Assembly (NCBI RefSeq): GCF_001039475.1
Contig: NZ_LELK01000004.1
Location: 898,330-962,329, forward strand
DNA length: 64,000 bases
Source: Guptibacillus hwajinpoensis
GTDB taxonomy: Bacteria; Bacillota; Bacilli; Bacillales; Guptibacillaceae
Direction: 5' to 3'
Position numbers and translations under genes: made by a program. This document shows, piece after piece, positions 9,957 to 50,555 of this stretch (within the stretch, counting starts at the first letter, position 1; each line of letters opens with the position of its first letter). A model generated the notes under the pieces. The model was not told the DNA's origin, ran no database searches, and worked only from the letters and a program-made list of their open reading frames with translations.

Positions 9957-10265
9957 ATGAAAGAAATTACTGAACAGAATGAGTTACGAGAGTTGATGAA
10001 CCAACCTTATTGTATTTTCTTTTTTTATACCCCATTTTGTCGAACGTGTAAAATTGCCCAGAGAATGCTTCAAGTTGTGATTGAGTCAAAAGATCTGCAA
10101 GAGAAGGTTTACGTTTGTAATTTAAATTACTTCCCATCGTTAGCTGAAGATCTTAAAATACAAAGTGTACCTGCACTGACGATTTATCGAGAAGGTAGTC
10201 CAGGTGACATCCTTTTTGCTTTTGAATCGGTTATTAAGGTAGATACTTTTTTAAGTAATGAATAA
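9957..10265 (+). CDS. yusE: Thioredoxin-like protein YusE
   Basis: This 102-aa cytoplasmic thioredoxin-fold protein has the redox motif FFYTPFCRTCKIAQRM (CRTC) and the conserved cis-proline in VPALTIYREG. It probably performs thiol-disulfide exchange; the partner is unknown. TAGGAG upstream sets the ATG at 9957. It is placed as in the yusF-yusE pair of B. subtilis. Confidence 0.85.
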   Translation: MKEITEQNELRELMNQPYCIFFFYTPFCRTCKIAQRMLQVVIESKDLQEKVYVCNLNYFPSLAEDLKIQSVPALTIYREGSPGDILFAFESVIKVDTFLSNE

Positions 10266-10606
10266 TTCATCTGATTATAGTTGACCATTTGTTTGTTATT
10301 TTTCAAATCTGATGAATGCCGGTATAGAGGGATTTTGTAGATCGTTAATATCCTGAAAATTTCGTTATATTAACAATGATAAATTAATATAACAGCCAGT
10401 AAAGAAACAGTAACATTGTCATATAATTGTATTTTCGTTAATGCTGATTGAATGGTATAACTGAATATAGAGTCACCATTCGTCTCGAACGGTGGCACAT
10501 TTCATTTTCATAGCTTTGATTTACTAATCCAGCTAAATAACATCTAAGAATCCAACCCGTATAAGCAATCGATTAGAAATTGATTGCAAAATGAGAGGTG
10601 TAAAAC
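10266..10606. other. Intergenic region upstream of sigI with two inverted repeats
   Basis: No gene is seen in this 341-bp AT-rich stretch. CACCATTCG/CGAACGGTG at 10474-10494 (one mismatch, 3-base loop) could fold into a hairpin. GCAATCGAT/ATTGATTGC at 10565-10587 lies in the leader just before the sigI ribosome binding site. It presumably holds the sigI promoter, but I cannot identify a convincing SigI-type or SigA-type sequence. Confidence 0.5.
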
Positions 10607-11362
10607 ATGACAACCATTTCAATCAGCACGAAAATGGGAAATTTCGCGAATAAAAAAGATAGCATTACATTAGAAGATAAAATCGACAGTATCCAAAATG
10701 GAAATCAACTATTAAGAAACCAGTTACTAGAAGACTACCAGCCGTTTATAAAGAAAATCACATCCAAAGTTTGCAATCGTTATATTAACCATACGATGGA
10801 CGAATTTAGTATCGGCCTGTCTGCTTTTAATGAAGCCATGGATCAATATAGAAGAGGGCAGGGTAGCCGTTTTCTGACCTTTGCAGATATGGTTATTAGA
10901 AGAAGAGTGATTGACTACATTCGTAAGGAAGCAAGACAAAACAAATACATCTATCTTGAACCTGAAGAACTTGATGAAGAAGGTCGTCTTGAAGATAGTT
11001 ATGCAGAACAAAAAGCAGCGCTTGATGTCTATGAAATGGACAAGCAAAGCGAGATGCGTATGTTTGAGATTGAAGAATATGAACAATTGTTGAAGAAATT
11101 CAGTATTACGTTTAAAGTGCTTAGCAAAAATTGTCCGAAACATATTGATGCTAGAGAGAACGCTAAGATGATTGCAAAGTTAATCGCAGACGATCACGTA
11201 TTATCAAGCTATTTGTTGGAAAAGAAACAGCTCCCAATAAAAGATTTGTTAGCACTCGTTACATGCAGTCGCAAAACAATCGAACGTAATCGAAAGTATA
11301 TAATAGCAGTTGCGTTAATCCATCTCGGTGGTTTTAATGCTCTGAAATCGTATATACAGTAG
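10607..11362 (+). CDS. sigI: RNA polymerase sigma factor SigI
   Basis: This 251-aa sigma-70-family factor equals the usual SigI length. The N-terminal half contains the region-2-like segment DEFSIGLSAFNEAMDQYRRG and FADMVIRRRVIDYIRKEAR. The C-terminal half ends in the SigI-specific LVTCSRKTIERNRKYIIA segment. SigI directs heat-shock and cell-wall-stress genes in B. subtilis. The start has GAGAGGTG upstream. rsgI, its anti-sigma partner, follows after 21 bp, the standard arrangement. Confidence 0.95.
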   Translation: MTTISISTKMGNFANKKDSITLEDKIDSIQNGNQLLRNQLLEDYQPFIKKITSKVCNRYINHTMDEFSIGLSAFNEAMDQYRRGQGSRFLTFADMVIRRRVIDYIRKEARQNKYIYLEPEELDEEGRLEDSYAEQKAALDVYEMDKQSEMRMFEIEEYEQLLKKFSITFKVLSKNCPKHIDARENAKMIAKLIADDHVLSSYLLEKKQLPIKDLLALVTCSRKTIERNRKYIIAVALIHLGGFNALKSYIQ

Positions 11363-11383
11363 TTGAATTAAGGGGGCCAGGGG

Positions 11384-12742
11384 ATGAAACAAGGGGTCAT
11401 TATGGATATTCGTGGGAGAAAAGCTGTTGTTTTAACGCCTGATGGTGAATTTACAACAATTAATCTTAAGCGAAATCATACGTTAACAATAGGCTCTGAA
11501 ATTAAACTTACACCAAAACCACTGAAACAGAAAAAGGGATATTTTACCCCTTCTATGCCCACCCTGGCCGGAATGACGGCGCTTTTGCTATTAGTTGTTC
11601 TTGTTACAGGCGTTATTCCTGTAACTCAGAACGATGCAGTTGCAGCCTATATCAGCTTTGATATTAATCCTAGTATTGAGGTTGGAGTGAATTCTGATCT
11701 TGAGGTTGTTCATTATCAAGCCTGGAATTCAGACGGTGAAGGGTTGAATTTAAGCAAGGAAACGAAGAATATGCCACTTAGTGAATTTGGTGGTCTCCTT
11801 GTATCACGTTTAGATAAAGATGGGTACCTTTCGGACGGGGGACAGCTGTTAATTGTCGCCTCAGATGTAGAGAAAAAAGAACGCTCTGAACACATCAAAG
11901 CTGCCCTAGAAAAAGCAATTCGTAACATTGAACAAAGTGAAGCGTTAAAAAGCCAGTCTATAGCCATCACAACGGTTCTAAATTCAGATCATAGTACCCG
12001 TCAAGAAGCTTTGGAGAAGGGTGTTTCACCTGGTAAATATGTAACATATTTAAGTGCTTTAGATCGAGGCGTTTCTCTTACCTTAAGTGACGTGCGCGAT
12101 TTATCAGTAAAGAAAATTGAAGCGCTAGAATCCCAAAACATGACAGCTCATGAAACAGATGCAGCTGATCCAATTAAAAGCTCATCAGAAATAGAAGATT
12201 CAGTTGTTCAACTGAATGACAAAAAGGCAGCTTCGGATGATGAAACTGGCGATAACGAATTGATTTTACAAGAACCAGCTGAACGTAAAACTGAAGATAA
12301 CGTGAAGAAGGATCGTTCAGAAGAGTCGGACCCAAAAGTGAAAGATGAAACCCCAGAAATAAACAAGGAGTCTGTTAAATCAGCAGAAAAAAACCTTGAC
12401 GATAACAGTTCAAATGAAGTCGTAAATACCGAAAAAAAAACTGAAAATCGAGTAAATAAAGCAGACAAAAAGATTGATAAGCAGATCGAGAATAGTCAAA
12501 AGAAACAAAATAAAGCAGATGAAAAAGCTGACAAGAAAGACAAAAAAAAAGAAAATAAAGAAAACAAGGAAAACGTTAAAATAGATAAACAGCAGGAAAA
12601 GAAAAAGAAGCAGCAAGAGAAAGAAAATCGCAAAAAGGCTAAGGAAGCAAAGAAACAGAAAGACAATGATGACGAAGACGAAGACGAAGATGAAGATGAA
12701 GATGAAGATGAAGATGAAGATGATGAAGAACAAGACGACTAA
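11384..12742 (+). CDS. rsgI: Anti-sigma-I factor RsgI
   Basis: This 452-aa single-pass membrane protein holds SigI inactive. Residues 1-50 form the cytoplasmic RsgI_N domain (GVIMDIRGRKAVVLTPDGEF). A membrane helix spans about 62-85 (AGMTALLLLVVLVTGVIP). An extracytoplasmic domain with YISFDINPSIEVGVNS follows to about residue 250. The last 200 residues are low complexity, first Lys/Glu/Asn-rich and then an almost pure Asp/Glu tail. B. subtilis RsgI is shorter (about 380 aa), so the tail is expanded. Regulated proteolysis is expected to release SigI. Confidence 0.93.
   Translation: MKQGVIMDIRGRKAVVLTPDGEFTTINLKRNHTLTIGSEIKLTPKPLKQKKGYFTPSMPTLAGMTALLLLVVLVTGVIPVTQNDAVAAYISFDINPSIEVGVNSDLEVVHYQAWNSDGEGLNLSKETKNMPLSEFGGLLVSRLDKDGYLSDGGQLLIVASDVEKKERSEHIKAALEKAIRNIEQSEALKSQSIAITTVLNSDHSTRQEALEKGVSPGKYVTYLSALDRGVSLTLSDVRDLSVKKIEALESQNMTAHETDAADPIKSSSEIEDSVVQLNDKKAASDDETGDNELILQEPAERKTEDNVKKDRSEESDPKVKDETPEINKESVKSAEKNLDDNSSNEVVNTEKKTENRVNKADKKIDKQIENSQKKQNKADEKADKKDKKKENKENKENVKIDKQQEKKKKQQEKENRKKAKEAKKQKDNDDEDEDEDEDEDEDEDEDDEEQDD
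12668..12733 (+). repeat. GAYGAA hexamer tandem repeat in the rsgI tail
   Basis: About ten consecutive copies of GAYGAA encode the alternating Asp-Glu tail of RsgI. The repeat preserves reading frame, so copy number could vary without frameshift. Confidence 0.85.
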
Positions 12743-13367: not shown

Positions 13368-13410
13368 GAACACAATTAAATGAAAATTAAATGAAAACGA
13401 AATATTCTTT

Positions 13411-13517
13411 CTTATCTAGAGAGGCGGAGGGACTGGCCCTATGAAGCCCGGCAACCGTCAAACCATTCGTGGTTTGAAAAGGTGCCAATTCCTGCAGGAG
13501 AAATCCTGGAAGATAAG
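13411..13517 (+). ncRNA. SAM-I (S-box) riboswitch 1, upstream of metX
   Basis: P1 is formed by CTTATCT (13411-13417) and AGATAAG (13511-13517). The S-box core GAGGGACTGGCCCTATGAAG, CCCGGCAACC and AAGGTGCCAATTCC is complete. S-adenosylmethionine binding would favour the terminator at 13538-13571 and turn off metX-metY. Confidence 0.97.
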
Positions 13518-13537
13518 CGGAGCTGATGATTAAATCA

Positions 13538-13728: not shown

Positions 13729-13789
13729 TATACCATGATTAATTGAGTTTTGCGAAGCATGTTAATTGTTTGAAAGGAGTGATAAGGGT

Positions 13790-14866
13790 TTGGAGAGAGA
13801 GAAGAGATACGAGGACCGTAACGTATCTATTGGGCCTTTTGTGCTCGAGTCTGGTGAGGAGCTTCCAAGTGTAGAACTTGCTTATGAGCGAGTTGGGCCA
13901 ACTGAAGCACCAGTCATCCTAGTGTGTCATGCCTTAACAGGGAATCAGTATACAGTAGGGGAATCGGAACCAGGGTGGTGGAAAGGATTAATTGGTCACG
14001 GTAAGTACGTTGATACTTCTGAGTTTCAAGTTATTACGTTTAACGTTCTTGGCGGATGTAATGGATCAACCGGTCCACTGTCCATTAACCCTGAAACAGG
14101 TCATGCGTATCAGTCGGATTTTCCATTCGTCACCGTACGAGATATCGTTCATTCTCAGAACAAAGCATTACAGGAGTTAGGCATTCATCATCTCCATGCG
14201 GTCATCGGTGGTTCACTTGGAGGAATGCAAGTATTGGAATGGGGTATTCTTTATCCAGATTGGATGGACCATCTCGTTCCGTTAGCTGTGACGCCGTCTC
14301 TAAGCGCATATGGTATTGCTTATAATTCTATTTCTAGGTTTGCAATTACGAAAGATCCAGCATGGAAAGATGGGTATTACAACCCCGATCATCCACCTAC
14401 TGCAGGACTTGCGACAGCAAGAATGGTTGGCATGATTTCTTATCGCACCGATGACATGTTTCAAAAGAAATTTGGTCGAAATGGGAATAGACGTTCAGAT
14501 GAGAGTCATACGGAAGCCTCGTATGATGTGGAATCCTACCTTCATTATCAAGGAAATAAGCTTACTCACCGCTTCGATGCAAATAGTTACTTATACTTAC
14601 TTAAAGCTATGGATATGCACGACATTGGTAGGGGCCGAGGTGACATAGCTAGTGCAGCTAAACAAATTCAATCCAATGTACTTGCCATAAGCTTCAAAGG
14701 AGATTTAATTTATCCTCCACGTGACTTAGATAGCATGTTCACACTCGAAAGCTTAGCGAAATTCTATATTGTTGATACCAAATTTGGTCATGATGGATTT
14801 CTCGTCGAATTTGATAAATGGGGTCCATTGATTAAAGAACAGCTGAAGGAAACATTAAAAATTTAA
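13790..14866 (+). CDS. metX: Homoserine O-acetyltransferase MetX
   Basis: This 358-aa alpha/beta-hydrolase-fold enzyme transfers acetyl from acetyl-CoA to homoserine, committing it to methionine. The nucleophile elbow is GGSLGGMQVLEW. The upstream GGCNGSTGP is typical of MetX, and the C-terminal GHDGFLVEFDKW carries the His-Asp pair. The start is TTG at 13790 with AAAGGAGTG at 13773-13781. An upstream in-frame TTG at 13766 precedes the ribosome binding site and is excluded. Acetyl rather than succinyl specificity is inferred from the acetylhomoserine sulfhydrylase gene that follows. Expression is controlled by S-box 1. Confidence 0.93.
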   Translation: MEREKRYEDRNVSIGPFVLESGEELPSVELAYERVGPTEAPVILVCHALTGNQYTVGESEPGWWKGLIGHGKYVDTSEFQVITFNVLGGCNGSTGPLSINPETGHAYQSDFPFVTVRDIVHSQNKALQELGIHHLHAVIGGSLGGMQVLEWGILYPDWMDHLVPLAVTPSLSAYGIAYNSISRFAITKDPAWKDGYYNPDHPPTAGLATARMVGMISYRTDDMFQKKFGRNGNRRSDESHTEASYDVESYLHYQGNKLTHRFDANSYLYLLKAMDMHDIGRGRGDIASAAKQIQSNVLAISFKGDLIYPPRDLDSMFTLESLAKFYIVDTKFGHDGFLVEFDKWGPLIKEQLKETLKI

Positions 14867-14881
14867 AGGAGTGAATGGAGA

Positions 14882-16180
14882 ATGGCAGAGAAACGTTACA
14901 ATTTAGAAACGATTGGTATTCATGGAGGACTACAGGCAGATCCTGCAACAGGAGCAAGAGCATTGCCGATTTATCAATCTAATGCTTACCGATTTAATAA
15001 TACGGATCATGCCGCAGACTTGTTTGCGTTAAAAGAAGAAGGGTTCATTTATTCTCGTATTGGTAACCCAACTGTCGGTACACTTGAAGAACGAATTGCT
15101 CAGCTTGAAGGTGGAATTGGAGCGCTTGGATTTGCGAGTGGCATGGCTGCCATTACGGCTTCGATTCTTAACATCGCGAATAGTGGTGATGAAATTGTAT
15201 CTGCCTCAACACTTTATGGTGGAACATATAACCTTTTTGCATCGACGCTTCCTAAATACGGTATAAAAACCAACTTTGTAGATCCGGAAAATCCGGAATC
15301 GTTTAGAAGTGCGATTACACCGAATACAAAAGCGATTTTCGCAGAGACAATTGGAAATCCGGGGCTTCACGTACTAGATATTGAGAAGGTAGCAGAAATT
15401 GCTCATGAAGCAGGAATTCCGTTAATTATAGACAATACATTTGCTACTCCTTACTTGTGTAGACCAATTGAACATGGAGCAGACATTGTCGTTCACTCCG
15501 CAACGAAATGGCTTGGTGGAAATGGTTCTACAATGGGCGGACTAATTGTAGACGGCGGTAAATTTGACTGGAACTCTTCCAAGTTTCCAGGGTTCATAGA
15601 GCCTGATCATTCCTATCATGGTATTGTATTTGCCGAAGCACTTCCCGAAGCAGCATACATTGTTAAGGCCCGCGTACAACTGTTGAGGGATACAGGCGCT
15701 TCATTGAGTCCTTTTAATGCATTTCAAATTGCACTTGGTGTTGAAACACTTCACGTTCGTATGAAGGAACATGTGGCTAACACTCGCAAAATTGTTTCAC
15801 ATCTTAAGAATCATGATGCAGTTGAATGGGTGAGCTATCCTGAAGAAGAAGATCACGCGTCCAATCATCTTGTGAGGAAATATCTTCCTAAGGGAGCTGG
15901 CGCTGTCGTTGTTTTCGGTATTAAAGGCGGTCGAGAAACAGGAGCCAAAATTATTAATGCAGTTGATCTCTGGTCGCATGTAGCGAATGTTGGAGATGCC
16001 AAAAGTTTAATTATCCACCCAGCAAGCACGACGCATCAGCAGCTAAGCGCAGATGAATTAAAAGCTTCAGGCGTACGAGATGATTTAATTCGACTTTCTG
16101 TTGGAATTGAACACATCGATGATCTTATTGAAGATCTTGATCAGGCAATTGCAAAGGCCAAAATTGAAGCGAACGCGTAA
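14882..16180 (+). CDS. metY: O-acetylhomoserine sulfhydrylase MetY (single-domain copy)
   Basis: This 432-aa PLP enzyme replaces the acetate of O-acetylhomoserine with sulfide to give homocysteine and free acetate. The PLP lysine lies in [15 protein letters not shown]. Family segments [20 protein letters not shown] and the C-terminal [13 protein letters not shown] are present. GGAGTG and GGAG precede the ATG at 14882, 15 bp after metX. It is the first of two paralogous sulfhydrylases; the second has an extra domain and its own S-box. Confidence 0.95.
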   Translation: MAEKRYNLETIGIHGGLQADPATGARALPIYQSNAYRFNNTDHAADLFALKEEGFIYSRIGNPTVGTLEERIAQLEGGIGALGFASGMAAITASILNIANSGDEIVSASTLYGGTYNLFASTLPKYGIKTNFVDPENPESFRSAITPNTKAIFAETIGNPGLHVLDIEKVAEIAHEAGIPLIIDNTFATPYLCRPIEHGADIVVHSATKWLGGNGSTMGGLIVDGGKFDWNSSKFPGFIEPDHSYHGIVFAEALPEAAYIVKARVQLLRDTGASLSPFNAFQIALGVETLHVRMKEHVANTRKIVSHLKNHDAVEWVSYPEEEDHASNHLVRKYLPKGAGAVVVFGIKGGRETGAKIINAVDLWSHVANVGDAKSLIIHPASTTHQQLSADELKASGVRDDLIRLSVGIEHIDDLIEDLDQAIAKAKIEANA

Positions 16181-16210: not shown

Positions 16211-16321
16211 CTCTTATCCAGAGAGGCAGAGGGACTGGCCCGATGAAGCCCGGCAACCATTAAGCAATGCTTAATAAGGTGCTAACTCCAGCAGAATAGC
16301 TACTATTCTGAGAGATAAGGG
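16211..16321 (+). ncRNA. SAM-I (S-box) riboswitch 2, between the two metY genes
   Basis: P1 pairs CTTATC (16213-16218) with GATAAG (16314-16319). The core GAGGGACTGGCCCGATGAAG, CCCGGCAACC and AAGGTGCTAACTCC is conserved. No good promoter is seen between metY and the aptamer, so it may be transcribed by read-through and act as a second attenuator for the downstream genes. Confidence 0.96.
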
Positions 16322-16328
16322 GAGGCTG

Positions 16329-16358
16329 ATGCCCTCTTCTTATTGAAGAGGGCATTTT
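16329..16358 (+). terminator. Riboswitch-controlled terminator before the fused metY
   Basis: ATGCCCTCTTC and GAAGAGGGCAT pair perfectly around TTATT and are followed by a T-tract. It is the expression platform of S-box 2. Confidence 0.93.
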
Positions 16359-16393
16359 TGAATTATTTTTGACTAAAAATTGGAGGAATACCG

Positions 16394-18172
16394 ATGACAC
16401 AATCATATCAATTCGACACGCTTTCCCTACATGGTGGACAGTCACCAGATCCAACAACAGGCTCTAGAGCAGTACCGATCTATCAAACGAGTTCTTATGT
16501 ATTTCACGATAGTGAGCATGCAGAAAGGCTATTTTCACTCGATGAACCTGGAAACATTTATTCAAGAATAGGAAATCCAACTGTAGATGTTTTTGAAAAG
16601 CGGATGGCTCTTCTCGAAGAAGGTGTTGCAGCTGTCGCGACGTCATCAGGGCAAGCAGCCATTGCCCTTTCAATTATGAACATAGCAAGCGCAGGCGACG
16701 AAATCGTGGCAGCTTCGAATTTATACGGCGGTACTTATAACTTATTTGCCGTTACGCTTCCGAGATATGGAATAAACGTTACGTTTGTTGATCCTACAGA
16801 TCCTGAAAATTTCAGAGATGCTATTACAGACAAAACAAAAGCTGTATTTGCAGAGATTATTGGTAATCCAAGCTTATCCGTTCTTCATGTGGAAAAAGTT
16901 TCAGATATTGCCCATGAAGCAGGAGTGCCGCTAATCGTTGACAATACATTTGCAACGCCATATGCATGTAAGCCACTAACGCTAGGAGCTGATATTGTTG
17001 TTCACTCTGCTACAAAGTGGATTGGAGGACACGGCACATCAATTGGTGGCGTCGTGATTGACGGTGGGCGCTTTAATTGGAACTCATCCAAATATCCAGC
17101 ATTCATTGAACCGGATGAAAGTTACAACGGCATTCGCTATGCGATCGACTTTGCAACGCTAGCTTTCAGCACAAAGCTTCGTGTTCAATTGCTACGTGAT
17201 TTCGGATCATGTCTTAGTCCGTTTAATGCTTTTCTACTTCTACAGGGACTTGAAACACTTCACCTTCGAGCAGAAAAACACAATCAAAATGCATTGAAAC
17301 TAGCAGAATACTTGCAGAACCATCCTGCTGTCGAGTGGGTAAGCTACCCTGGATTGCCTTCTCACCCATCTCACCAAGATGCCCTGGAGATTCTTTCAAA
17401 TGGATTTGGTGCAGTTGTGAACTTTGGAATTAAAGGTGGAAAATCCGCAGGTAGAGAGCTCATAGATAATGTATCGCTCTGGTCTCACCTTGCGAACGTA
17501 GGAGATGCGAAAAGCTTAATTATTCATCCCGCAAGTACAACTCATCAACAGCTTAAGAAGGAGCAGTTGGAACGAGCCGGCGTCAAAGAGGAACTTATTC
17601 GTCTATCTGTTGGAGTGGAAGGTTCGGATGATTTGATCTTTGATCTGGATCAGGCGCTTCGAAAAGCAACAGGATTGGAGAACGACAGTCGAATTGTCAT
17701 AAATGATGAAGGCGAGATTAGGTGGGCGTTGCAAAGTCCTTACGTGAAAGAAAGTATCGATGGGAAAGAAAGTCAAAGACAAAAAACACTTGCCGTTGTA
17801 GGTCTCAGTGGCAATGAAGCCCGTCCAAGTCATCGTCTAGCAAGGAAAATGCAGAGACTCGGTTACAAAATCATTCCGGTCAATCCAAAGGCTCATACGA
17901 TTCTCGGAGAAAAAGCATACCCAGATCTACGAAGTATTCCAAATCAAATTGATGTTGTTCAAGTATTTAGAAGCCCTGAAGCAGCCATTGAAGTAGCGAA
18001 AGAAGCAGCAGAAGTTAAACCGCGCTTGTTCTGGCTTCAGGAAGGTGTCGTTTCAGAGAAAGCAGCACAAATAGCAGCGGATGCTGGATTACAGGTTGTT
18101 CATAACCGCTGCACTTATAAAGAAGCCCAGAGGCTCAGAGGAACGATATCAACGTATGCGTGTGAGATCTAA
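16394..18172 (+). CDS. O-acetylhomoserine sulfhydrylase fused to a C-terminal CoA-binding domain
   Basis: This 592-aa protein has two parts. Residues 1 to about 428 are a PLP-dependent MetY paralogue ([28 protein letters not shown]). After a linker of about 35 residues, residues 464-592 form a CoA_binding (YccU-like) Rossmann domain with [46 protein letters not shown] and NRCTYKEA. Ordinary MetY proteins stop near 430 residues. The domain may sense or bind CoA or acetyl-CoA, linking sulfhydrylation to acetyl-CoA supply; this is inference. A ribosome binding site TTGGAGGA sets the ATG at 16394. It starts the operon that continues through hom. Confidence 0.9.
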
Positions 18173-18194
18173 ATAAGGAGAGGGAGAAACCATT

Positions 18195-19196
18195 ATGAGA
18201 AAAATTCAATGGATTGATGTTAGAAGGTTAAGTGTACTCTTGCTAGCGGTTGTCGTTCTAATTAGTGCAGGTTGCTCTTCGTCAGAAGCTAATTCAAGTG
18301 CACCAGAGGAAATTCGAGTTGACTATGCTTATTACTCACCAACTAGTCTAGTTGTAAAGAAATTTGGGTTCCTTGAAGAAGAATTTAAGGACGACAACAT
18401 TCAAATCGAATATGTGCTCAGTCAAGGAAGTAATAAGGCATTGGAATTTCTAACGAGTAACAGCGTTGACTTTGGTTCGACTGCAGGCGCAGCTGCTTTA
18501 ATGGCAAAAGCAAAAGGAGCGCCGGTTAAGAACGTTTATATTTATTCAAAGCCTGAGTGGACAGCGCTCGTCACTAATAAAGATTCCGAGATTAGTAGTG
18601 TAGAAGATTTAAAAGGAAAAAAAGTAGCTGCGACGCTAGGAACAGATCCATACATTTTCTTACTTCGTTCTTTAAATGAAGCTGGATTATCTCAGGATGA
18701 CATTGAGCTGGTAAACCTTCAGCACGGAGATGGGGCTTCGGCACTAAGCACCGGTCAAGTTGATGCATGGGCTGGTCTTGATCCTCATATGGCAAGGGTA
18801 GAACTTGAGACAGATGCTGAACTTTTCTATCGAAATGCAGATTTGAACACGTACGGGTTTTTGAATACGCGCACAGAGTTTGCTGAAAAATATCCTGAAC
18901 ATGTGAAACGCGTGATTAACGTCTACGAGAAAGCTAGACAGTGGATCCTTGATCATCCAGAAGAAGCAGCTGAGCTACTAGCTGAAGAAGCGGACATTCA
19001 GTTAGATGTAGCCAAGAAACAGTTAGAACGTAATGATTTCTCAAATCCGATTCCAGGAGAAGAGCAGAAAGAAGCGATTATAGCAGCAGGTAACGTTCTG
19101 CAAGAAAGTGAGATTATTGACGCTGAAGCAGATGTTGAAGAATTAACGAATGAGTTAATTGATCCAACCTTCGCAGAAGAAGTTATTACGAAATAG
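18195..19196 (+). CDS. NitT/TauT-family ABC transporter substrate-binding lipoprotein
   Basis: This 333-aa lipoprotein has an N-terminal signal segment (LSVLLLAVVVLISAG) and lipobox SAGC, so it would be anchored outside the membrane. The mature part resembles SsuA/TauA-type binding proteins (NMT1/THI5-like fold): VDYAYYSPTSLVVKKFG, FGSTAGAAALMAKAKG and GQVDAWAGLDPHMA. The usual ligands are sulfonates or related compounds. The S-box setting suggests a sulfur compound or methionine precursor. No sulfonate monooxygenase gene (ssuD or tauD) is in this window. Confidence 0.85.
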   Translation: MRKIQWIDVRRLSVLLLAVVVLISAGCSSSEANSSAPEEIRVDYAYYSPTSLVVKKFGFLEEEFKDDNIQIEYVLSQGSNKALEFLTSNSVDFGSTAGAAALMAKAKGAPVKNVYIYSKPEWTALVTNKDSEISSVEDLKGKKVAATLGTDPYIFLLRSLNEAGLSQDDIELVNLQHGDGASALSTGQVDAWAGLDPHMARVELETDAELFYRNADLNTYGFLNTRTEFAEKYPEHVKRVINVYEKARQWILDHPEEAAELLAEEADIQLDVAKKQLERNDFSNPIPGEEQKEAIIAAGNVLQESEIIDAEADVEELTNELIDPTFAEEVITK

Positions 19197-19211
19197 AAAG
19201 GAGCGGTTGAT

Positions 19212-20045
19212 ATGGCGAGACAAGGGCATTCGGAAGCCTTACCGCTTAGAAGTCTAGAGAAGGCGCCTAATAAAAAGAAACTAACAGTACACCCTGCCAT
19301 TATCGGGAGTATCCTTCCTATTCTATTGCTTTTGATCTGGGAAGCACTAAGTCGATTAGCCATCCTCCCCACCTATTTGCTACCAGCACCAACAGTTATT
19401 GTAAACACGATAATCGAGCTGGGTGCTGATGGCTCGCTTTGGGGGCATATCGGAATTACACTTTATCGTATATTTATTGGATTTCTTTTAGGCGCTTTTG
19501 CTGCCTTAATACTAGGTTCATTTGTAGGCTTTTATCGAAAAGCGGAACAGCTTTTTGATCCTATTATTCAGGCGTTCCGCTCCATACCATCTCTAGCGTG
19601 GGTTCCCCTCTTTATTCTTTGGATGGGCATTGCTGAAGCATCGAAAGTGACGTTAATTGCCGTTGGTGTTTTCTTCCCAGTCTATCTAAATGTTGTGAGC
19701 GGAATCTTGAGCGTTGATCGTCAATTAATTGAGGTAGGAAAAATGTACGGACTAAGCAGTTTTCAACTTGTTAAAAGAATTATTCTTCCTGCATCACTTC
19801 CTTCTTTTCTAGTAGGCCTGAGAAGCGGACTGGGACTTGGTTGGATGTTTGTTGTAGCGGCAGAATTAATGGGAGCAAGTCAGGGACTTGGCTACTTGCT
19901 TGTTCTTGGACAGAACACGTACTCTCCTGAACTTATTATTGCAAGCATTGTTCTGTTTGCGGTGCTCGGCAAAGCGACTGATGCATTATTGAAAAAGATA
20001 GAAAATAGATCACTCCATTGGCAAGATCGGATGGAACAACGGTGA
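19212..20045 (+). CDS. NitT/TauT-family ABC transporter permease (SsuC-like)
   Basis: This 277-aa membrane protein has about six hydrophobic helices. The first lies near residues 30-50 (IIGSILPILLLLIWEALS). The cytoplasmic EAA-type loop is in SVDRQLIEVGKMYGLSSFQL. It belongs to the BPD_transp_1 family of sulfonate or taurine permeases. GGAGCGG precedes the ATG at 19212. It forms an importer with the flanking lipoprotein and ATPase genes, spaced 15 and 9 bp away. Confidence 0.9.
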   Translation: MARQGHSEALPLRSLEKAPNKKKLTVHPAIIGSILPILLLLIWEALSRLAILPTYLLPAPTVIVNTIIELGADGSLWGHIGITLYRIFIGFLLGAFAALILGSFVGFYRKAEQLFDPIIQAFRSIPSLAWVPLFILWMGIAEASKVTLIAVGVFFPVYLNVVSGILSVDRQLIEVGKMYGLSSFQLVKRIILPASLPSFLVGLRSGLGLGWMFVVAAELMGASQGLGYLLVLGQNTYSPELIIASIVLFAVLGKATDALLKKIENRSLHWQDRMEQR

Positions 20046-20054
20046 GGAGGGTCC

Positions 20055-20792
20055 ATGATGAGTCTAAAAGTTCGGAACGTTAGTAAGGAATTTGAGAATA
20101 GAAAAGCGATTGAAAACATCTCATTTAGTACTGAGCGCGGAGAAATCATCGGCATTCTAGGAACGAGCGGCTGTGGAAAAAGTACGCTGTTACGAGCGGT
20201 ATCAGGGTTAGATACGTCTTACAGTGGTGATGTTCTTCTAGATGGTCAGGTTTGCAGACATGTTGATGAACGACTCGGCTTTATTTTTCAACAGCCAAGA
20301 CTTATGCCGTGGTTATCGGTAATAGAGAATGTCTCGTTTGGCTTAAGTGGAAGAAAAGATGAGAAGCAAAAGAACGCAGCAAGATACTTGGATCTTGTAG
20401 GGCTTAAGGGAAACGAAAGTGACTATCCTAAACAACTTTCAGGGGGGATGGCGCAGCGCGTTGCGATTGCACGTGCTCTTGTCACCTCACCTGAATACTT
20501 GTTGCTTGATGAGCCGTTTAGTGCCCTTGATGCTTTTACGAAGATGAAGCTACAAGACTTATTATTAGAGATTTGGGAAGCTTACCAAACTACGATTCTA
20601 CTTGTAACACACGATGTTGAAGAGGCGCTCTATTTATGTGACCGACTTATCATCTTGAAAGGACAGCCTGGAACAATAGATGAAGAGCTACTAATTGATG
20701 AACCACGACCTCGCTCCCGTGGAAGCGCAAAGCTAGCCGCGTATAAAGAACATATTCTAAACAGGTTGGAATTAACGACACCTGTAAACTAG
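20055..20792 (+). CDS. NitT/TauT-family ABC transporter ATP-binding protein (SsuB-like)
   Basis: This 245-aa ATPase has Walker A GTSGCGKST, the signature LSGGMAQRVAIARAL, Walker B YLLLDEPFSALD and the H-loop LLVTHDVEEAL. It would energise the permease at 19212. GAGGAGGG is upstream; ATG codons at 20055 and 20058 are alternatives. The family is clear; the ligand is not. Confidence 0.92.
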   Translation: MMSLKVRNVSKEFENRKAIENISFSTERGEIIGILGTSGCGKSTLLRAVSGLDTSYSGDVLLDGQVCRHVDERLGFIFQQPRLMPWLSVIENVSFGLSGRKDEKQKNAARYLDLVGLKGNESDYPKQLSGGMAQRVAIARALVTSPEYLLLDEPFSALDAFTKMKLQDLLLEIWEAYQTTILLVTHDVEEALYLCDRLIILKGQPGTIDEELLIDEPRPRSRGSAKLAAYKEHILNRLELTTPVN

Positions 20793-20809
20793 CCAGGAGG
20801 GATCAGCAT

Positions 20810-22462
20810 ATGACCACGACGACAAACCAACTTCCTTCACAAGCTTTAGAAACAAATCTAGGGAGCTATAAGGAAATCTACTCTACATTTGAATGGCAAA
20901 ATCAAGAGAATCGATTGATTAATCATTCTACTGGAAAAATGAATGCCGCTTACGAATGCATTGATCGGCATGTCGCAAATGGGTACGGAAATAAAACAGC
21001 TTTACATTATGTTAATGGAGACACAAAACAATCGCTTACGTTTAGTGAAATAAAAGAAAAAACAGATCACTATGCTGCTGTATTAAAGAAGCACGGAGTT
21101 GAACGAGGAGAAAGAGTTTTTATCTTTCTACCGAAAAATCCTGAATGCTACATTGCCATTCTTGCTGTTATTAAAGTCGGTGCTATTGCCGCACCACTCT
21201 TTGAAGCTTTTATGGAAGAAGCCGTGAAGGATCGTATCAATGACTGTGAGGGAACCGTTCTCCTTACAGATGAGGAGCTTTGGAAACGTGTTCCTGTGAA
21301 AGACATTCCTTCATTAAATCTTATTCTTACAGCAACGGAAATAGAGAACACCATTGTTGGGAGTAAATCTCCGATTGAATGGGTTGATCCAGAAGATGGT
21401 TTAATTCTTCATTATACGAGCGGATCGACAGGCAAACCTAAAGGAGTACTACACGCTCATCGTTCTATTATTCATCATTATCAGACTGGACATTGGGTTC
21501 TTGACATAAAGGAAACAGATGTATACTGGTGTACTTCTCATCCAGGATGGGTGACGGGAAGTGTGTACGGACTTTTTGCACCATGGTTGAATCGAGCAAC
21601 TATTGTTATTTCAGGTGGACGATTTGATGCAGATCAATGGTATAGCCTAATTGATCAATTGAATGTCACAATTTGGTATAGTGCACCTACTGCATTTCGG
21701 ATGTTAATGGCAAATGAAGATATCGTACAAAACTATAATCTGAATTCGCTTCGCCACATTTTGAGTGTAGGCGAACCACTGAATCCAGAAGTAATTGATT
21801 GGGCATTCCGAGTGTGGGGGCAGCGAATTCACGACACATGGTGGATGACAGAAACGGGAGGGCATCTCATTGTTAATTTTCCGGGTGAAGTTATTAAGCC
21901 AGGATCAATGGGGCGTCCCTTTCCAGGTGTAAAGGTAGGGATCCTTGATGAAGATGGAAATAAGTTGCCGGCAGGGCAAACGGGTCAGCTTGCAATTGAA
22001 GCTCCGTGGCCAGGCTTGATGAAAACCGTGTGGAATAACTTGGAGAAATTCGAAAGTTACTTTCCATACAAAGGATGGTATGTCTCAGGAGACCTTGCTT
22101 ATCAAGATGAGGAAGGATATGTTTTCTTTCAGGGACGTGACGACGATATGATTAATTCTTCTGGGGAGCGAATTGGACCGTTTGAAGTCGAAAGTGGGCT
22201 GATTACCCACCCAGCAGTAGCAGAAGCAGGTGTTGTGGGGAAACCGGATAAAGTAAGGGGAGAAATCGTTAAAGCATACATCACCTTACGTACAGGCTAT
22301 GAACAAACGGATGAACTTATCCAAGATATTCGACTTCACGTAAGAAAGAATCTCGCTGCACATGCTGCTCCTAGAGAAATAGAAGTACTAGATGAGCTTC
22401 CGAAAACAAAAATCAGCGGGAAAATTTTACGTAGAGTATTGAAAGAGCGGTCAATACAATAA
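20810..22462 (+). CDS. AMP-forming acyl-CoA ligase, acetyl-CoA-synthetase-like
   Basis: This 550-aa ANL-superfamily enzyme has the P-loop HYTSGSTGKPKGVLHAH, the motif DTWWMTETGG and the hinge region WYVSGDLAYQDEEGYVFFQG. The catalytic lysine is in PKTKISGKILRR. The second Trp of DTWWMTETG aligns with the Trp that restricts true acetyl-CoA synthetases to acetate or propionate. The protein is a little shorter than B. subtilis AcsA. In this S-box operon it could recycle the acetate released by MetY into the acetyl-CoA used by MetX. That role is my inference; a different short-chain acid is possible. Confidence 0.85.
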   Translation: MTTTTNQLPSQALETNLGSYKEIYSTFEWQNQENRLINHSTGKMNAAYECIDRHVANGYGNKTALHYVNGDTKQSLTFSEIKEKTDHYAAVLKKHGVERGERVFIFLPKNPECYIAILAVIKVGAIAAPLFEAFMEEAVKDRINDCEGTVLLTDEELWKRVPVKDIPSLNLILTATEIENTIVGSKSPIEWVDPEDGLILHYTSGSTGKPKGVLHAHRSIIHHYQTGHWVLDIKETDVYWCTSHPGWVTGSVYGLFAPWLNRATIVISGGRFDADQWYSLIDQLNVTIWYSAPTAFRMLMANEDIVQNYNLNSLRHILSVGEPLNPEVIDWAFRVWGQRIHDTWWMTETGGHLIVNFPGEVIKPGSMGRPFPGVKVGILDEDGNKLPAGQTGQLAIEAPWPGLMKTVWNNLEKFESYFPYKGWYVSGDLAYQDEEGYVFFQGRDDDMINSSGERIGPFEVESGLITHPAVAEAGVVGKPDKVRGEIVKAYITLRTGYEQTDELIQDIRLHVRKNLAAHAAPREIEVLDELPKTKISGKILRRVLKERSIQ

Positions 22463-22476
22463 TGGGGGTGATGTCA

Positions 22477-23682
22477 GTGGAAACACTTCATGTAGCACTG
22501 ATTGGTTTCGGGACAGTCGGTAAAGGGATATACGAAAGCATTGAAGAACAGCGAGAGCAGTTAGAGAGTTTGCTTGGTAAGACAATTTCAATAGATGCCA
22601 TATTAATTAAAGATGGAGACATCAATAGAGAAGTAGACAATAATGTACTACTAACGACTAATGTCGAAGATCTACTGAGTCTACCTCAGCTTGATGTCGT
22701 TTTTGAAGCGATTATTGGTGTTGAACCTGCTCGAACGTATTTAGCTAAATTTATCGAAAAAGGCTGTCATATTGTTAGTGCTAATAAAGAGTTATTAGCA
22801 CATAAAGGCAAAGAGCTAAGGAGCCTTGCGACCAAATACAAGGTTGGATTAAGGTACGAAGCGGCAGTGGCAGCGTCTATCCCAATCTTAAGCACATTGA
22901 GAGAAGGATTAAAGAGCAATCAAATTCAAGAAATCAGCGGAATCTTAAACGGAACATCGAATTTCATTCTTAGTGAACTACAGCAAAAAGAGCTCTCATT
23001 TGAACAAGCGCTTAATGAAGCTAAAGAGAAAGGCTATGCGGAAGCTGATCCGACGAATGACATTAAGGGATGGGATGCTTTCTATAAAATTCTCATTCTC
23101 TCAGACCTTGTCTATGGCGAGCAGCCCGAATGGGACAGAATTATAAGAAAGGGAATTGACGAAGTGACGTCTGCAGACATCAAAAAAGCGGAATCAATTG
23201 GCTTTCGAATAAAACACATCGCATCGCTCAAGCCAAGTGCTGATGGACCTGTCATTTCAGTAGAGCCAGTCGCGGTCACATCATCTCATCCATTTTTCCA
23301 TGTAGCGGGTGTCAACAACGCACTCCAAGTAACTGGTAACTTAGCAGGTAGTATTACACTAAATGGACCTGGTGCAGGTGCTTATCCAACTGCTAGCGCT
23401 ATGATTGAGGATTTACTTAGCCTCTACCGCAACAGTTCCGAAAGTGTCTTTTATTCTCCATCTAAGGAGAATGGAGCTGAAGTACCTGACTGGTTATTGT
23501 TAGGTGAGATCTCAGAAGTGATGTCGATTGAACTTCTCCCTTTATCAGAAAATGGTGCATATTATGCTAGTGGTAATAGAAGCGATATCGAAACGTATCT
23601 CGAGCAAAACCCTTTCCTCAAGCTATATCCGCTCAAGGGTTTGATTAAGGAGCATGATAGGTCTAATCTGGCTCTTGTATAA
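22477..23682 (+). CDS. Homoserine dehydrogenase, methionine-operon copy
   Basis: This 401-aa enzyme reduces aspartate semialdehyde to homoserine. The NAD(P)-binding motif is LIGFGTVGKGIYESI. NGTSNFILSEL and EADPTNDIKGWDAFYKI are typical catalytic-domain sequences. A frame-open ATG at 22462 overlaps the ligase stop. GGGGGTGAT at 22464-22472 instead points to GTG at 22477. It is shorter than the usual 430-aa Hom, and its last 60 residues do not look like a standard ACT domain, so threonine feedback may be altered. It supplies homoserine to MetX and ends the S-box operon. Confidence 0.88.
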   Translation: METLHVALIGFGTVGKGIYESIEEQREQLESLLGKTISIDAILIKDGDINREVDNNVLLTTNVEDLLSLPQLDVVFEAIIGVEPARTYLAKFIEKGCHIVSANKELLAHKGKELRSLATKYKVGLRYEAAVAASIPILSTLREGLKSNQIQEISGILNGTSNFILSELQQKELSFEQALNEAKEKGYAEADPTNDIKGWDAFYKILILSDLVYGEQPEWDRIIRKGIDEVTSADIKKAESIGFRIKHIASLKPSADGPVISVEPVAVTSSHPFFHVAGVNNALQVTGNLAGSITLNGPGAGAYPTASAMIEDLLSLYRNSSESVFYSPSKENGAEVPDWLLLGEISEVMSIELLPLSENGAYYASGNRSDIETYLEQNPFLKLYPLKGLIKEHDRSNLALV

Positions 23683-23690
23683 GTATTCAT

Positions 23691-23717
23691 TCCCCTCAAA
23701 AATAGAGGGGTTTTTTC
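23691..23717 (+). terminator. Terminator of the methionine operon
   Basis: CCCCTC and GAGGGG arms with an AAAAATA loop are followed by six T, directly after hom. Confidence 0.9.
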
Positions 23718-34644: not shown

Positions 34645-34755
34645 TCTCTTATTCAGAGAGGTGGAGGGACTGGCCCTATGAAGCCCGGCAACCGTCAAAC
34701 AACTGTTTGAAAAGGTGCCAATTCCTGCAAAGCGTATGCTTTGAGAAATGAGAGG
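34645..34755 (+). ncRNA. SAM-I (S-box) riboswitch 3, upstream of metNPQ
   Basis: The core GAGGGACTGGCCCTATGAAG, CCCGGCAACC and AAGGTGCCAATTCC is present. P1 pairs CTCTTATT (34646-34653) with AATGAGAG (34747-34754). It would lower methionine import when S-adenosylmethionine is abundant. Confidence 0.96.
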
Positions 34756-34772
34756 AAGACATTGTTTATTCC

Positions 34773-34806
34773 ATGCCTTTCTGCTCATAGCAGAAGGGCA
34801 TTTATT
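34773..34806 (+). terminator. Riboswitch-controlled terminator before metNPQ
   Basis: ATGCCTTTCTGC and GCAGAAGGGCAT arms pair (one G-T type mismatch) around TCATA and are followed by TTATTATTTT. Confidence 0.88.
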
Positions 34807-34811
34807 ATTTT

Positions 34812-35032
34812 AGGCTCTTTTCTAAAAGATTGTTGTTTTTGAAATTATTTTCGTAAAAGAACCTGACTACGCTAATTGGAGCGGAAGGATGCTCGACTCC
34901 TGCGGGACTAGCGGGACAGGTGAGACCCCACAGGCGAAGCCGAGGAGGCTCACCGCCCGCCCCGCGGAAAGCGAGCATCCTGCAGCGGAAATTAACCCAC
35001 GCTTATAGCAACAATGTATACGAAAAGAGCCT
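34812..35032. repeat. Family-1 intergenic repeat, full copy D with terminal inverted repeats
   Basis: The best complete copy, 221 bp. Left end AGGCTCTTTTCTAAAAGATT and right end ATGTATACGAAAAGAGCCT form terminal inverted repeats that also share TTGTTG/CAACAA. Inside, GGAGCGGAA boxes flank a GC-rich core with inverted GGATGCTCG and CGAGCATCC. TATTTT directly flanks both ends and could be a target duplication, though the region is AT-rich. Confidence 0.85.
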
Positions 35033-35107
35033 TATTTTATAAGTGCTAATGCTAAATAAGGAAGATATCCGTAGTGATGATCTTTTAATATAAGGGAAGT
35101 GAGACAT

Positions 35108-36130
35108 GTGATTGAGCTAAAAGGCATTAACAAAACATTTTTTTCGAAATCTGGAAAAGTGGAAGCCGTAAAGAACGTTAACCTTTCAATTGAGAAGGGC
35201 GAAATCTTTGGAGTCATTGGATACAGTGGCGCTGGGAAGAGTACACTCATTCGGATGCTAAATCTACTGGAAAGACCAACGGATGGTACTGTCACGGTAG
35301 CTGGCAATAACTTATCCTCTCTAAATGAGAAGAAGCTCCGATCAGCAAGACAGGAAATTGGAATGATCTTTCAACACTTTAATATATTATGGTCTCGTAC
35401 AGTAAGAGATAACATTGCGTTTCCGCTTGAAATATCAGGTATTTCGAAAGAAGACCGTAAAAAGCGTGTCGACGAGCTGATTCAGCTTGTTGGACTTGAA
35501 GGTCGTGAGAATGCTTATCCCTCACAGCTAAGCGGTGGTCAAAAGCAGCGGGTTGGTATCGCAAGAGCACTTGCGAACAATCCTAAAGTACTACTTTGTG
35601 ATGAGGCTACATCTGCGCTTGATCCTAAGACAACAGATAGCATTCTCGAACTACTGACGGAAATCAACAAAAAATTAGGTCTTACTATCGTTTTAATTAC
35701 ACATGAAATGCACGTGATTCGAAAAATTTGTCATGGTGTTGCTGTAATGGAGAATGGCAATGTTGTGGAAGAAGGTTCTGTCTTAGAGGTCTTTCATCAT
35801 CCAAAGGAACCGATCACAAAAGATTTTGTTAACCAATTGAGCGAACCAGAAGAAATGAAGGAATCGATTGCACATCTGGCAGCAAGTAACGATGGAGAAC
35901 TTGTCCAGTTTACATTCATTAAAGGAAAAACAGGTTCACCTCTCGTGACAGACTTAATACGGAGATATGATGTTGAAGTAAACATTATTCAAGGGAAGAT
36001 CTCCCATACGCAAGACGGACCATACGGGAAGCTTTCTGTGTTCATTAAAGGATCGCAACCTGTTATAGATGAGGCGCTTGCATATGTTCGCGGGCAAGGT
36101 GTTGAAGCGGAGGTGATTTTGAATGACTGA
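35108..36130 (+). CDS. metN: Methionine ABC transporter ATP-binding protein MetN
   Basis: This 340-aa ATPase has Walker A GYSGAGKST, signature LSGGQKQRVGIARAL, Walker B LLCDEATSALD and the C-terminal NIL domain (about 260-340) that senses methionine. AAGGGAAG at 35092-35099 sets GTG at 35108; the GTG at 35099 lies in the ribosome binding site. metP overlaps its end by 8 bp. S-box 3 controls the unit. Confidence 0.95.
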   Translation: MIELKGINKTFFSKSGKVEAVKNVNLSIEKGEIFGVIGYSGAGKSTLIRMLNLLERPTDGTVTVAGNNLSSLNEKKLRSARQEIGMIFQHFNILWSRTVRDNIAFPLEISGISKEDRKKRVDELIQLVGLEGRENAYPSQLSGGQKQRVGIARALANNPKVLLCDEATSALDPKTTDSILELLTEINKKLGLTIVLITHEMHVIRKICHGVAVMENGNVVEEGSVLEVFHHPKEPITKDFVNQLSEPEEMKESIAHLAASNDGELVQFTFIKGKTGSPLVTDLIRRYDVEVNIIQGKISHTQDGPYGKLSVFIKGSQPVIDEALAYVRGQGVEAEVILND

Positions 36131-36791
36131 GTCACTATTTCCGAACGTTAATTGGGAAAACATGTGGGAAGCGACCCTACAAACAATGTATATGACGGCC
36201 ATTTCTGTCCTAGCAACGTTTATCTTAGGTATTGCCCTTGGTCTACTGCTATTCCTAACAGCTAAAGGTAATATTTGGGAGAATAAGTTTGTGAATGGTA
36301 TCATCGCTGGAATTGTTAACTTGTTCCGTTCCATTCCGTTTATCATTTTGATCATTTTGCTTATCCCATTGTCCGTTTATATTATCGGTACAATGCTAGG
36401 AGCAAATGCCGCACTTCCAGCACTAATTGCAGGGGCAGCCCCATTCTATGCAAGAATGGTTGAAATTGCGTTAAGAGAAGTTGATAAGGGAGTTATTGAA
36501 GCGTCTCAATCTATGGGTGCATCAAACGGAGCTATTGTTTTTAAAGTCCTACTTCCTGAGGCGATGCCAGCGCTTATTTCTGGTATTACAGTAACTGCAA
36601 TTGCGCTTGTCAGCTATACGGCGATGGCAGGTGTCGTTGGTGCAGGTGGTCTTGGAAACCTTGCCTATCTAGAAGGTTTTCAACGAAATAATCCTGATGT
36701 TACGTTAGTTGCTACGGTCTTAATATTAGTTATTGTTGCTATTCTTCAAGTTAGTGGAGACTTAACAACAAGAGCAATAGATAAAAGATAA
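36123..36791 (+). CDS. metP: Methionine ABC transporter permease MetP (MetI-like)
   Basis: This 222-aa membrane protein has five or six helices. Its coupling loop is ALREVDKGVIEASQSMGASN, and GVVGAGGLGNLAYLEGFQR is typical of MetI/MetP. GGAGGTGA lies in the end of metN. It forms the channel of the MetNPQ importer. Confidence 0.95.
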   Translation: MTESLFPNVNWENMWEATLQTMYMTAISVLATFILGIALGLLLFLTAKGNIWENKFVNGIIAGIVNLFRSIPFIILIILLIPLSVYIIGTMLGANAALPALIAGAAPFYARMVEIALREVDKGVIEASQSMGASNGAIVFKVLLPEAMPALISGITVTAIALVSYTAMAGVVGAGGLGNLAYLEGFQRNNPDVTLVATVLILVIVAILQVSGDLTTRAIDKR

Positions 36792-36816
36792 AGAGGAGAA
36801 AAGGAGAGATTCAGTT

Positions 36817-37659
36817 ATGAAGAAATTGTTGTCAATCTTAGCTGTCCTTGCTTTGGCTGTACTTGCAGCATGTGGAGCAAACAACAGCAACAGTGAAGGT
36901 TCATCAGGCGAGGGAGAAGATTCGAACAAGCTTGTAGTAGGTGCATCAAACATTCCACACGCTGAAATTCTTGAAGAAGCAAAGCCGGTTCTGAAAGAAA
37001 AAGGCGTAGAGCTTGAAATTAAGACGTTCCAAGATTACATTCTTCCAAATAAGACGCTTGCTAATGGCGAGTTAGATGCAAACTACTTCCAAACAATTCC
37101 TTACATGGATCTTCAGATGGAAGAGAACGAGAACTATGACTTTGTTAACGCTGGTGGCATTCACATTGAACCAATCGGTGTATATTCAGAGGATTATGAA
37201 AGCCTAGAAGAGCTTCCAGAAGGCGCACAAATCATAATGAGTAACTCTGTATCTGACCACGGGCGTATGCTTTCTCTTCTTGAAGCACAAGGGCTAATCA
37301 CTCTTGAAGAGGGTGTGAAAGCAGCAGATGCTACTGTAGAAAATATAGCAGAGAACCCTAAAAACATTGAGTTCAAAACAGATGTTGAAGCATCACTTCT
37401 TCCTCAGATCTATCAGCAGGGTGAAGGCGATGCAGTTATGATCAACACAAACTATGCAATTGACGCTGGTTTGAATCCGCAAGAAGATGCCATTGCACTT
37501 GAAGATTCAAATTCACCATACGTGAACGTCATTACTGTTAATAAAGGTGACGAAGACAACGAAGCTGTTAAAACACTAGTTGAAGTTCTTCGTTCTGAAG
37601 ACATTCAAAACTTTATTAAAGAAGAATATAACGGTGCTGTTGTGCCAGTAAACGAATAA
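36817..37659 (+). CDS. metQ: Methionine-binding lipoprotein MetQ
   Basis: This 280-aa NlpA-family lipoprotein has signal segment LLSILAVLALAVLAACGANN with lipobox LAAC. Its mature fold includes NIPHAEILEEAKPVLKEKG, ANYFQTIPYMD and QIYQQGEGDAVMINTNYA. It captures methionine outside the membrane and delivers it to MetNP. A strong terminator follows. Confidence 0.95.
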   Translation: MKKLLSILAVLALAVLAACGANNSNSEGSSGEGEDSNKLVVGASNIPHAEILEEAKPVLKEKGVELEIKTFQDYILPNKTLANGELDANYFQTIPYMDLQMEENENYDFVNAGGIHIEPIGVYSEDYESLEELPEGAQIIMSNSVSDHGRMLSLLEAQGLITLEEGVKAADATVENIAENPKNIEFKTDVEASLLPQIYQQGEGDAVMINTNYAIDAGLNPQEDAIALEDSNSPYVNVITVNKGDEDNEAVKTLVEVLRSEDIQNFIKEEYNGAVVPVNE

Positions 37660-50500: not shown

Positions 50501-50555
50501 ACTTGTAATGGTGAACTACTGATCGGGGTGGACACTTAACATTGACTCGGTGAAA

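Follow-up and report, generated by a model that had tools for sequence, protein, structure and literature searches.

The stretch analysed here (the window, 64,000 nt on contig NZ_LELK01000004.1 from the 4.26 Mb genome of Guptibacillus hwajinpoensis) carries a gene for an acetate–CoA ligase paralogue, acs, as the next-to-last gene of a methionine operon (16211–23710) that begins with an S-box, the S-adenosylmethionine (SAM)-I riboswitch. In total, 14 S-boxes were found in this genome with the Rfam model RF00162 (gathering score, 44.4). Two of them head the gene units of interest: unit 1 consists of an S-box, metX, and metY1, and unit 2 of an S-box, metY2, ssuA, ssuC, ssuB, acs, and hom. A preliminary description of this DNA had reported two S-box units with a homoserine dehydrogenase, MetX, two MetY sulfhydrylases, and an AMP-forming ligase, and all of these were recovered, the ligase and hom at the coordinates given. 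The range assigned there to the system (20810..23682) covers just the last two genes of a larger unit. Two further features had been missed, namely a CoA_binding_2 domain fused to the second MetY and an SsuACB-type importer (18195–20792) lying between the second MetY and the ligase. The features of the two units are as follows:

13409..13519, + strand: S-box (SAM-I riboswitch) heading unit 1; RF00162, 92.2 bits
13537..13563, + strand: terminator-like hairpin in the unit 1 leader; pattern scan
13766..14866, + strand: metX, homoserine O-acetyltransferase; open frame of 366 aa with a TTG start; NF001209, 409 bits (cut-off, 331)
14882..16180, + strand: metY1, unfused O-acetylhomoserine sulfhydrylase; TIGR01326, 641.5 bits (cut-off, 495.1)
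16211..16321, + strand: S-box (SAM-I riboswitch) of unit 2, upstream of the ligase genes; RF00162, 94.8 bits
16328..16356, + strand: terminator-like hairpin in the unit 2 leader; pattern scan, 12-pair stem followed by a T run
16394..18172, + strand: metY2 with a C-terminal CoA_binding_2 fusion; TIGR01326, 648.7 bits (cut-off, 495.1); PF13380 at residues 464–577
17783..18124, + strand: CoA_binding_2 domain of the metY2 fusion; PF13380, 129.5 bits (cut-off, 22.8)
18195..19196, + strand: SsuA-like substrate-binding protein; TIGR01728, 247 bits (cut-off, 163.5)
19212..20045, + strand: SsuC-like permease; PF00528; best NCBIfam model SsuC, 193.8 bits, under the cut-off of 347
20055..20792, + strand: SsuB-like ATPase; PF00005; best NCBIfam model, 229.6 bits, under the cut-off of 395
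20810..22462, + strand: acs, acetate–CoA ligase paralogue of the S-box unit; NF003313, 783.8 bits (cut-off, 729)
21539..21541, + strand: codon of ligase His244, equivalent to AcsA position 255 (Asp in ordinary AcsA); alignment
22400..22423, + strand: PX5GK motif PKTKISGK, lengthened by one residue ahead of the catalytic lysine; sequence
22462..23682, + strand: hom, homoserine dehydrogenase; PF00742 and PF03447
23692..23710, + strand: terminator-like hairpin at the 3' end of the operon, after hom; pattern scan

The product of metX falls short of TIGR01392 (392.4 bits; cut-off, 500), both MetY proteins miss the narrower model NF006096 (cut-off, 726), and the Pfam search of hom gave no domain besides the two listed. 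The ATG of hom shares one base with the stop codon of acs. Terminator-like hairpins are not enriched (7 found; shuffle mean, 7.9), so only their positions, after each S-box and after hom, carry weight.

The MetY–CoA-binding fusion was found in 65 of the 397 genomes of the order, with a wide score gap to lone CoA-binding proteins in the CoA domain search, and the neighbourhoods of all 65 were inspected. The unit S-box > metY-CoA-binding > ssuACB > acs (hereafter, the cassette) recurs in the same order as in the window. The ligase lies beside the fusion in 53 of the 65 genomes, spanning 14 family and 23 genus codes, and an S-box is found no more than 1.7 kb upstream in 51 of these 53 cassettes; thus, the earlier placement of the ligase in an S-box methionine unit holds well beyond the window. 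The importer is present at 51 of the 53 ligase-bearing loci and absent from two; of the remaining 12 fusion loci, only one is accompanied by the importer, the ligase being absent there, and the other 11 lack both genes at the locus; one of these 11 (G211; codes with G and L denote genomes and loci of the survey) is situated at a contig end. In the window's own genus, the fusion is unevenly distributed, occurring in 5 of 14 genomes. In a scan of named genomes, which overlap with the 397 so that the counts are not additive, 135 loci were hit and the best 80 retained; both the ligase and ssuA are present at 60 of these, the ligase only at nine, and neither at 11; all of the 50 loci (of the 80) that were searched for an S-box have at least one. 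As a control, 46 genomes without the fusion were examined, 42 of which provided a total of 44 unfused MetY genes. Compared by eye, none of these genes had, among the matches listed, an Acs of at least 50% identity at a distance of 10 kb or less; one (G045) lies near an AMP ligase of 37% identity. An association of the ligase with MetY in general is rejected by this control, and the contrast between 53 of 65 fusion loci and 0 of 44 unfused genes indicates that the arrangement is not due to chance.

The ligase misses the models of long Acs proteins, NF001208 (505.2 of 657 bits) and TIGR02188 (500 of 724.95 bits). The motif DTWWMTETGG, from which an acetate or propionate specificity had been proposed earlier, is present, and the pocket motifs are conserved among the cassette ligases (DTWW and SVGEP, 53/53; GWVTG, 52/53; GWITG, 1/53). 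The Trp of DTWW, the Val/Thr of GWVTG, and the Val of SVGEP shape a pocket for short-chain acids, in line with their roles in Salmonella Acs. The NF003313 model and the pocket residues both fit acetate, and the cassette ligases retain the acetate pocket. Methylthiopropionate or other bulky acids find no support as candidate substrates, since the Trp of the pocket is conserved along with the residues around it. The best solved relative of the ligase is 9g79 (721.9 bits), which PMC11910552 identifies as Bacillus subtilis AcsA. An ordinary AcsA is also encoded in the genome of the window (C7:1205844) and is 59% identical to the ligase, a value within the range of about 51–60% observed for ordinary AcsA proteins of the order. 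The ligase of the S-box unit therefore represents an extra Acs.

Cassette and ordinary ligases are separated by a single branch (support, 100) in a quick-method tree of 42 cassette ligases (of 98 distinct ones) and 24 ordinary ones, built without the motif region, and 11 positions distinguish the two sets at a level of at least 90%. All 53 cassette ligases read PKTxISGK (PX5GK), whereas all 20 ordinary AcsA proteins read PKTRSGK (PX4GK), as do five of five further Acs-like genes of the order. At AcsA position 255, His is found in 53/53 cassette ligases and Asp in 20/20 ordinary AcsA proteins; the five further genes have Asp (three), Asn (one), or a residue that was not parsed (one). The ligases of the named genomes follow the cassette pattern, with PX5GK in 69/69 and His at position 255 in 68/69, the last one not being parsed. 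Comparison with genome G002 points to purifying selection on the window ligase (nonsynonymous rate dN, 0.05; synonymous rate dS, 0.56; dN/dS, about 0.09). The best explanation of these sequence features is that the S-box ligase is a second acetate:CoA ligase, akin to the ordinary AcsA yet distinct from it. The original observation is hereby confirmed as real and conserved, and proves more specific than first described: an acetate-ligase group is bound to SAM-controlled methionine/sulfur units.

When the order was searched for the PX5GK codons, a screen that would miss a ligase with another motif, 77 places in 74 of the 397 genomes were hit. Six genomes (G184, G320, G375, G327, G384, and G395) were dropped after reading as not Acs, and 68 were counted as true: the 53 cassettes, 12 read at the locus, two accepted by coordinates only (G257 and G393), and one by a 24-base pattern only (G356). 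By this count, the ligase is present in 61 of the 65 genomes with the fusion and in seven of the 332 without it.

Acetate would be released in the course of methionine synthesis only where homoserine is acetylated. In 22 cassette genomes, metX does not lie near the cassette; eight of these have MetX elsewhere, and in 14 none was found. MetA is present in all 14 MetX-less genomes, each time with Glu in the motif GAP[VI]E. We take this Glu to mark acetyl rather than succinyl transfer, a rule reportedly established by Zubieta in 2008. With MetA apparently of the acetyl type, acetate should be set free in the MetX-less cassette genomes too, and the idea that the ligase reuses this acetate survives the examination of these 22 genomes.

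The motif changes of the cassette ligases fall in regions where the inhibitor AcuA contacts ordinary AcsA. In the window's genome, the neighbours of the ordinary acsA (L050) belong to the GNAT, CBS, and histone-deacetylase families, in the order acuABC. The NCBIfam search of these three genes gave zero matches; the GNAT protein aligns over its full length with the solved AcuA, which indicates that AcuA is present. According to PMC11910552 and PMC11255334, AcuA is a binding partner of AcsA that acetylates K549 within the PX4GK motif, the C-terminus of AcuA enters the CoA site of AcsA, and AcsA residues 253–264 and 301–317 become protected upon binding. PMC11619455 defines the PX4GK acetylation motif and describes the six residues ahead of the lysine as necessary, though not sufficient, for the acetylation of MenE by AcuA. 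Positions 255 and K549 were mapped through the alignment of the ligase with 9g79: D255H lies within the protected stretch 253–264, and PX5GK lies within the K549 loop. The PX4GK motif that marks an AcuA-regulated AcsA is absent from the cassette ligases. Since both AcuA contact regions are changed, the cassette ligase probably stays active while AcsA is off. This escape from AcuA is a probable corollary of acetate reuse, derived from the positions of the sites and stated in none of the sources.

The best explanation of the locus, put forward with middling confidence, is that the ligase reuses the acetate set free by methionine synthesis, under the control of the SAM riboswitch. At low SAM the operon would be read; Hom would make homoserine, and MetX (or an acetyl-type MetA in other genera) would acetylate it using acetyl-CoA. 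MetY would then swap the acetyl group for sulfur and free acetate, which the ligase would convert back to acetyl-CoA, so that the methionine precursor would cost ATP and no net acetyl-CoA. AcuA shuts off the ordinary AcsA by binding and by acetylation of the catalytic lysine, with the cassette ligase probably remaining on. A possible role of the CoA-binding domain of MetY is to retain or sense CoA close to the ligase, and the importer would bring in a sulfur compound. In a fuller form, the domain would carry CoA to the very spot of acetate release and the ligase, as a dedicated partner freed from AcuA by the inserted residue and the Asp-to-His change, would recapture the acetate at once, which would make a SAM-switched, AcuA-blind acetyl cycle with no net need for acetyl-CoA; this stronger version appears unlikely to us. 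The acetate recycling proposed in the preliminary description is supported by the kept pocket, the extra Acs, and the apparent acetyl type of MetA; the proposal took no account of the importer, and S-box ssuACB-acs units without an adjoining fused MetY exist, so that recycling stands as the best of several readings.

Several observations weigh against acetate reuse. The ordinary AcsA is present in the same genome, as, presumably, is Pta-AckA, so an acetyl loop is not obviously needed. D255H could alter the binding of substrate or CoA instead of contact with AcuA. No S-box was found within the stretch read in the cassettes of G048 and G241. No PX5GK ligase was found in four of the 65 fusion genomes (G029, G030, G102, and G312), from which the ligase seems dispensable, and in 15 of the 68 ligase genomes no fused MetY adjoins the ligase (the fusion is elsewhere in eight and absent in seven). 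Finally, of the 68 genomes with the ligase, 65 have the importer next to it. This last figure suggests that the ligase might activate a small carboxylic acid, perhaps a sulfur-bearing one, delivered by the ABC importer, the whole forming a SAM-controlled sulfur-scavenging module, which we regard as a doubtful but serious alternative. It would account for the units S-box > ssuACB > acs without an adjoining fused MetY (L217–L228): in L217–L221 the fusion is located elsewhere in the genome (a contig end truncates the S-box of L218), and the genomes of L222–L228 yielded no fusion. On the same side, in a quick tree of 112 fusions, which does not tell losses from gains, the presence of the ligase changes only once among 85 importer-bearing loci, which speaks for a link between importer and ligase. 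In that tree, however, the presence of the importer changes ten times among 95 ligase-bearing loci. The ligase persists without the importer at 11 of the 95 (nine named loci, G065, and G228), and a search down to E 1e-15 found no SsuA relative of more than 31% identity in these genomes. SsuA relatives were detected at E 1e-80 in 80 genomes, of which 79 (at least 57% identity) were kept and G025 (51%) was set aside; ligase and importer occur together in 65 genomes, the ligase alone in three, and the importer alone in 14 of the 79, one of these (G236) being cut by a contig end. Among the importer genomes, the ligase is found in 58 of 59 with the fusion vs. seven of 20 without it, and, counted by genus, in 23 of 24 vs. 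two of seven (Fisher p, 0.0007, uncorrected for descent). In G228 (L106, 10538–14366), an S-box, an SfnG-like dimethylsulfone monooxygenase, a flavin mononucleotide (FMN) reductase, and the cassette ligase directly follow metX and the fused metY; another organosulfur system apparently fills the slot of the importer there, with the ligase kept. The pocket, moreover, is that of an acetate enzyme. A role of the ligase as part of the importer only is weakened by the ten importer changes with the ligase kept, although the importer is still its commonest neighbour. The ligase tracks the fused MetY somewhat more closely than the importer, and either link can be broken. Joint loss of ligase and importer was also considered as an account of loci with neither, and is partly wrong, as both persist in a second S-box unit elsewhere in G186, G211, G374, G337, and G298. 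SsuD-type use of sulfonates was set aside, given that SsuD exceeded the cut-off in just one of the 36 fusion genomes searched (of 65), and not in the window's genome. Seven genomes of genus g40 (L237–L243) have, in this order, an S-box, unfused metY, metX, ssuACB, and a frame of 285 aa, and the acetate ligase is absent; a FadD-like AMP ligase (identity, about 28%), at least 0.4 kb past the 285-aa frame, could count in favour of the importer as the ligase's partner.

If the ligase served to feed MetX or MetA with acetyl-CoA made from outside or overflow acetate, no closed loop would be required and the acetate from MetY would be a small source; the gene evidence for this role is the one given for acetate reuse, and genes of the pathway that spends acetyl-CoA are often near the cassettes (metX, 31/53; hom, 32/53), although neither gene is near 17 of the 53 and the fused MetY is the steadier partner, and we consider this supply role unlikely. 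It is quite improbable that the ligase is an ordinary AcsA backup hitch-hiking in a sulfur operon, with metabolically meaningless S-box control: the second AcsA in the genome and the four fusion genomes lacking a PX5GK ligase agree with this, whereas the ligases beside the fusion in 23 genus codes form one group with fixed motif changes, which is kept even without the importer. Hardly credible, in our judgement, is a scheme in which the CoA domain is the key and MetY takes sulfur from a CoA-bound donor made with the help of the ligase or importer. The fusion itself, the Cys of its NRCTYKE motif (invariant in the 16 domains compared), and the SsuA type of the importer would fit such a donor, but no linked enzyme for it is present in the window.

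The operon is already in print. In Table 4 of an RNA sequencing study of Bacillus methanolicus MGA3 (PMC4342826), it is given as (SAM)-(PyrR)-BMMGA3_03030-ssuA1-ssuC1-ssuB1-acsA1-thrA under the label 'sulfonate uptake', and the word 'acetate' is absent from the main text of that paper. The gene order and the SAM riboswitch are the same as in the window; the label differs from the acetate function suggested here. The cassette is present in B. methanolicus strain PB1 (L185), from which BMMGA3_03030 is probably the fused MetY. Beyond this table row, the titles and abstract openings of the open-licence papers listed gave no link between an acetyl-CoA synthetase and methionine synthesis. The earlier claim of novelty must be narrowed, the operon as such being published; an acetate interpretation of it was not found among these papers. 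In comparison with B. subtilis AcsA and its AcuABC system, the window ligase has the same pocket motifs and catalytic lysine, but is located in an S-box unit instead of the acu locus and has PX5GK in place of PX4GK and His in place of Asp255. The importer resembles the SsuABC sulfonate importer in that the SsuA family model is passed, whereas the equivalog cut-offs of SsuB and SsuC are missed and the SsuD partner is rare. The enzymes of the direct sulfhydrylation pathway (MetX/MetY) are all the same, except that one MetY has a CoA-binding domain and a ligase is included in the operon. If acetate reuse is correct, a riboswitch would tie the activation of acetate to methionine demand, and the insertion of one residue would illustrate how a paralogue may escape a general off-switch, acetylation by AcuA; genomes could be scanned for this insertion. 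For metabolic engineering, the cassette would suggest a ready-made way to spare acetyl-CoA in the production of methionine or O-acetylhomoserine.

The CoA_binding_2 domain of the fusion is akin to the solved CoA-binding proteins 2duw, 2d59, and 1iuk, and none of the open-licence papers listed dealt with such a domain fused to MetY. In G013 (L040, 13110–14878), the fused metY is divided between two frames, as the result of either a real frameshift or faulty assembly. In genus g78, the fused metY of L075 (G356) is followed by an acetoacetate–CoA ligase, thiolase-like genes, an OB-fold protein, and an MFS transporter; judged by frame sizes only, L076, L078, and L080–L082 are arranged likewise. 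The fusion also occurs elsewhere in the phylum (L202–L206), with neither an S-box nor an Acs adjoining; the fusion of L203 precedes a biotin-carrier-like gene and a methylmalonyl-CoA decarboxylase alpha-like gene. L209 (G749, 10127–11927), again from outside the order, has the pair in unfused form, with metY next to a distinct CoA-binding gene in an ilv/leu cluster. Elsewhere in the window, the stretch 34646–37659 contains a further S-box and, after it, a MetN-like gene for an ABC importer (at 35099; 389.8 bits, under the MetN cut-off of 499.7) as well as further importer-like frames, and a lysine riboswitch (115.7 bits) is located at 50346–50526.

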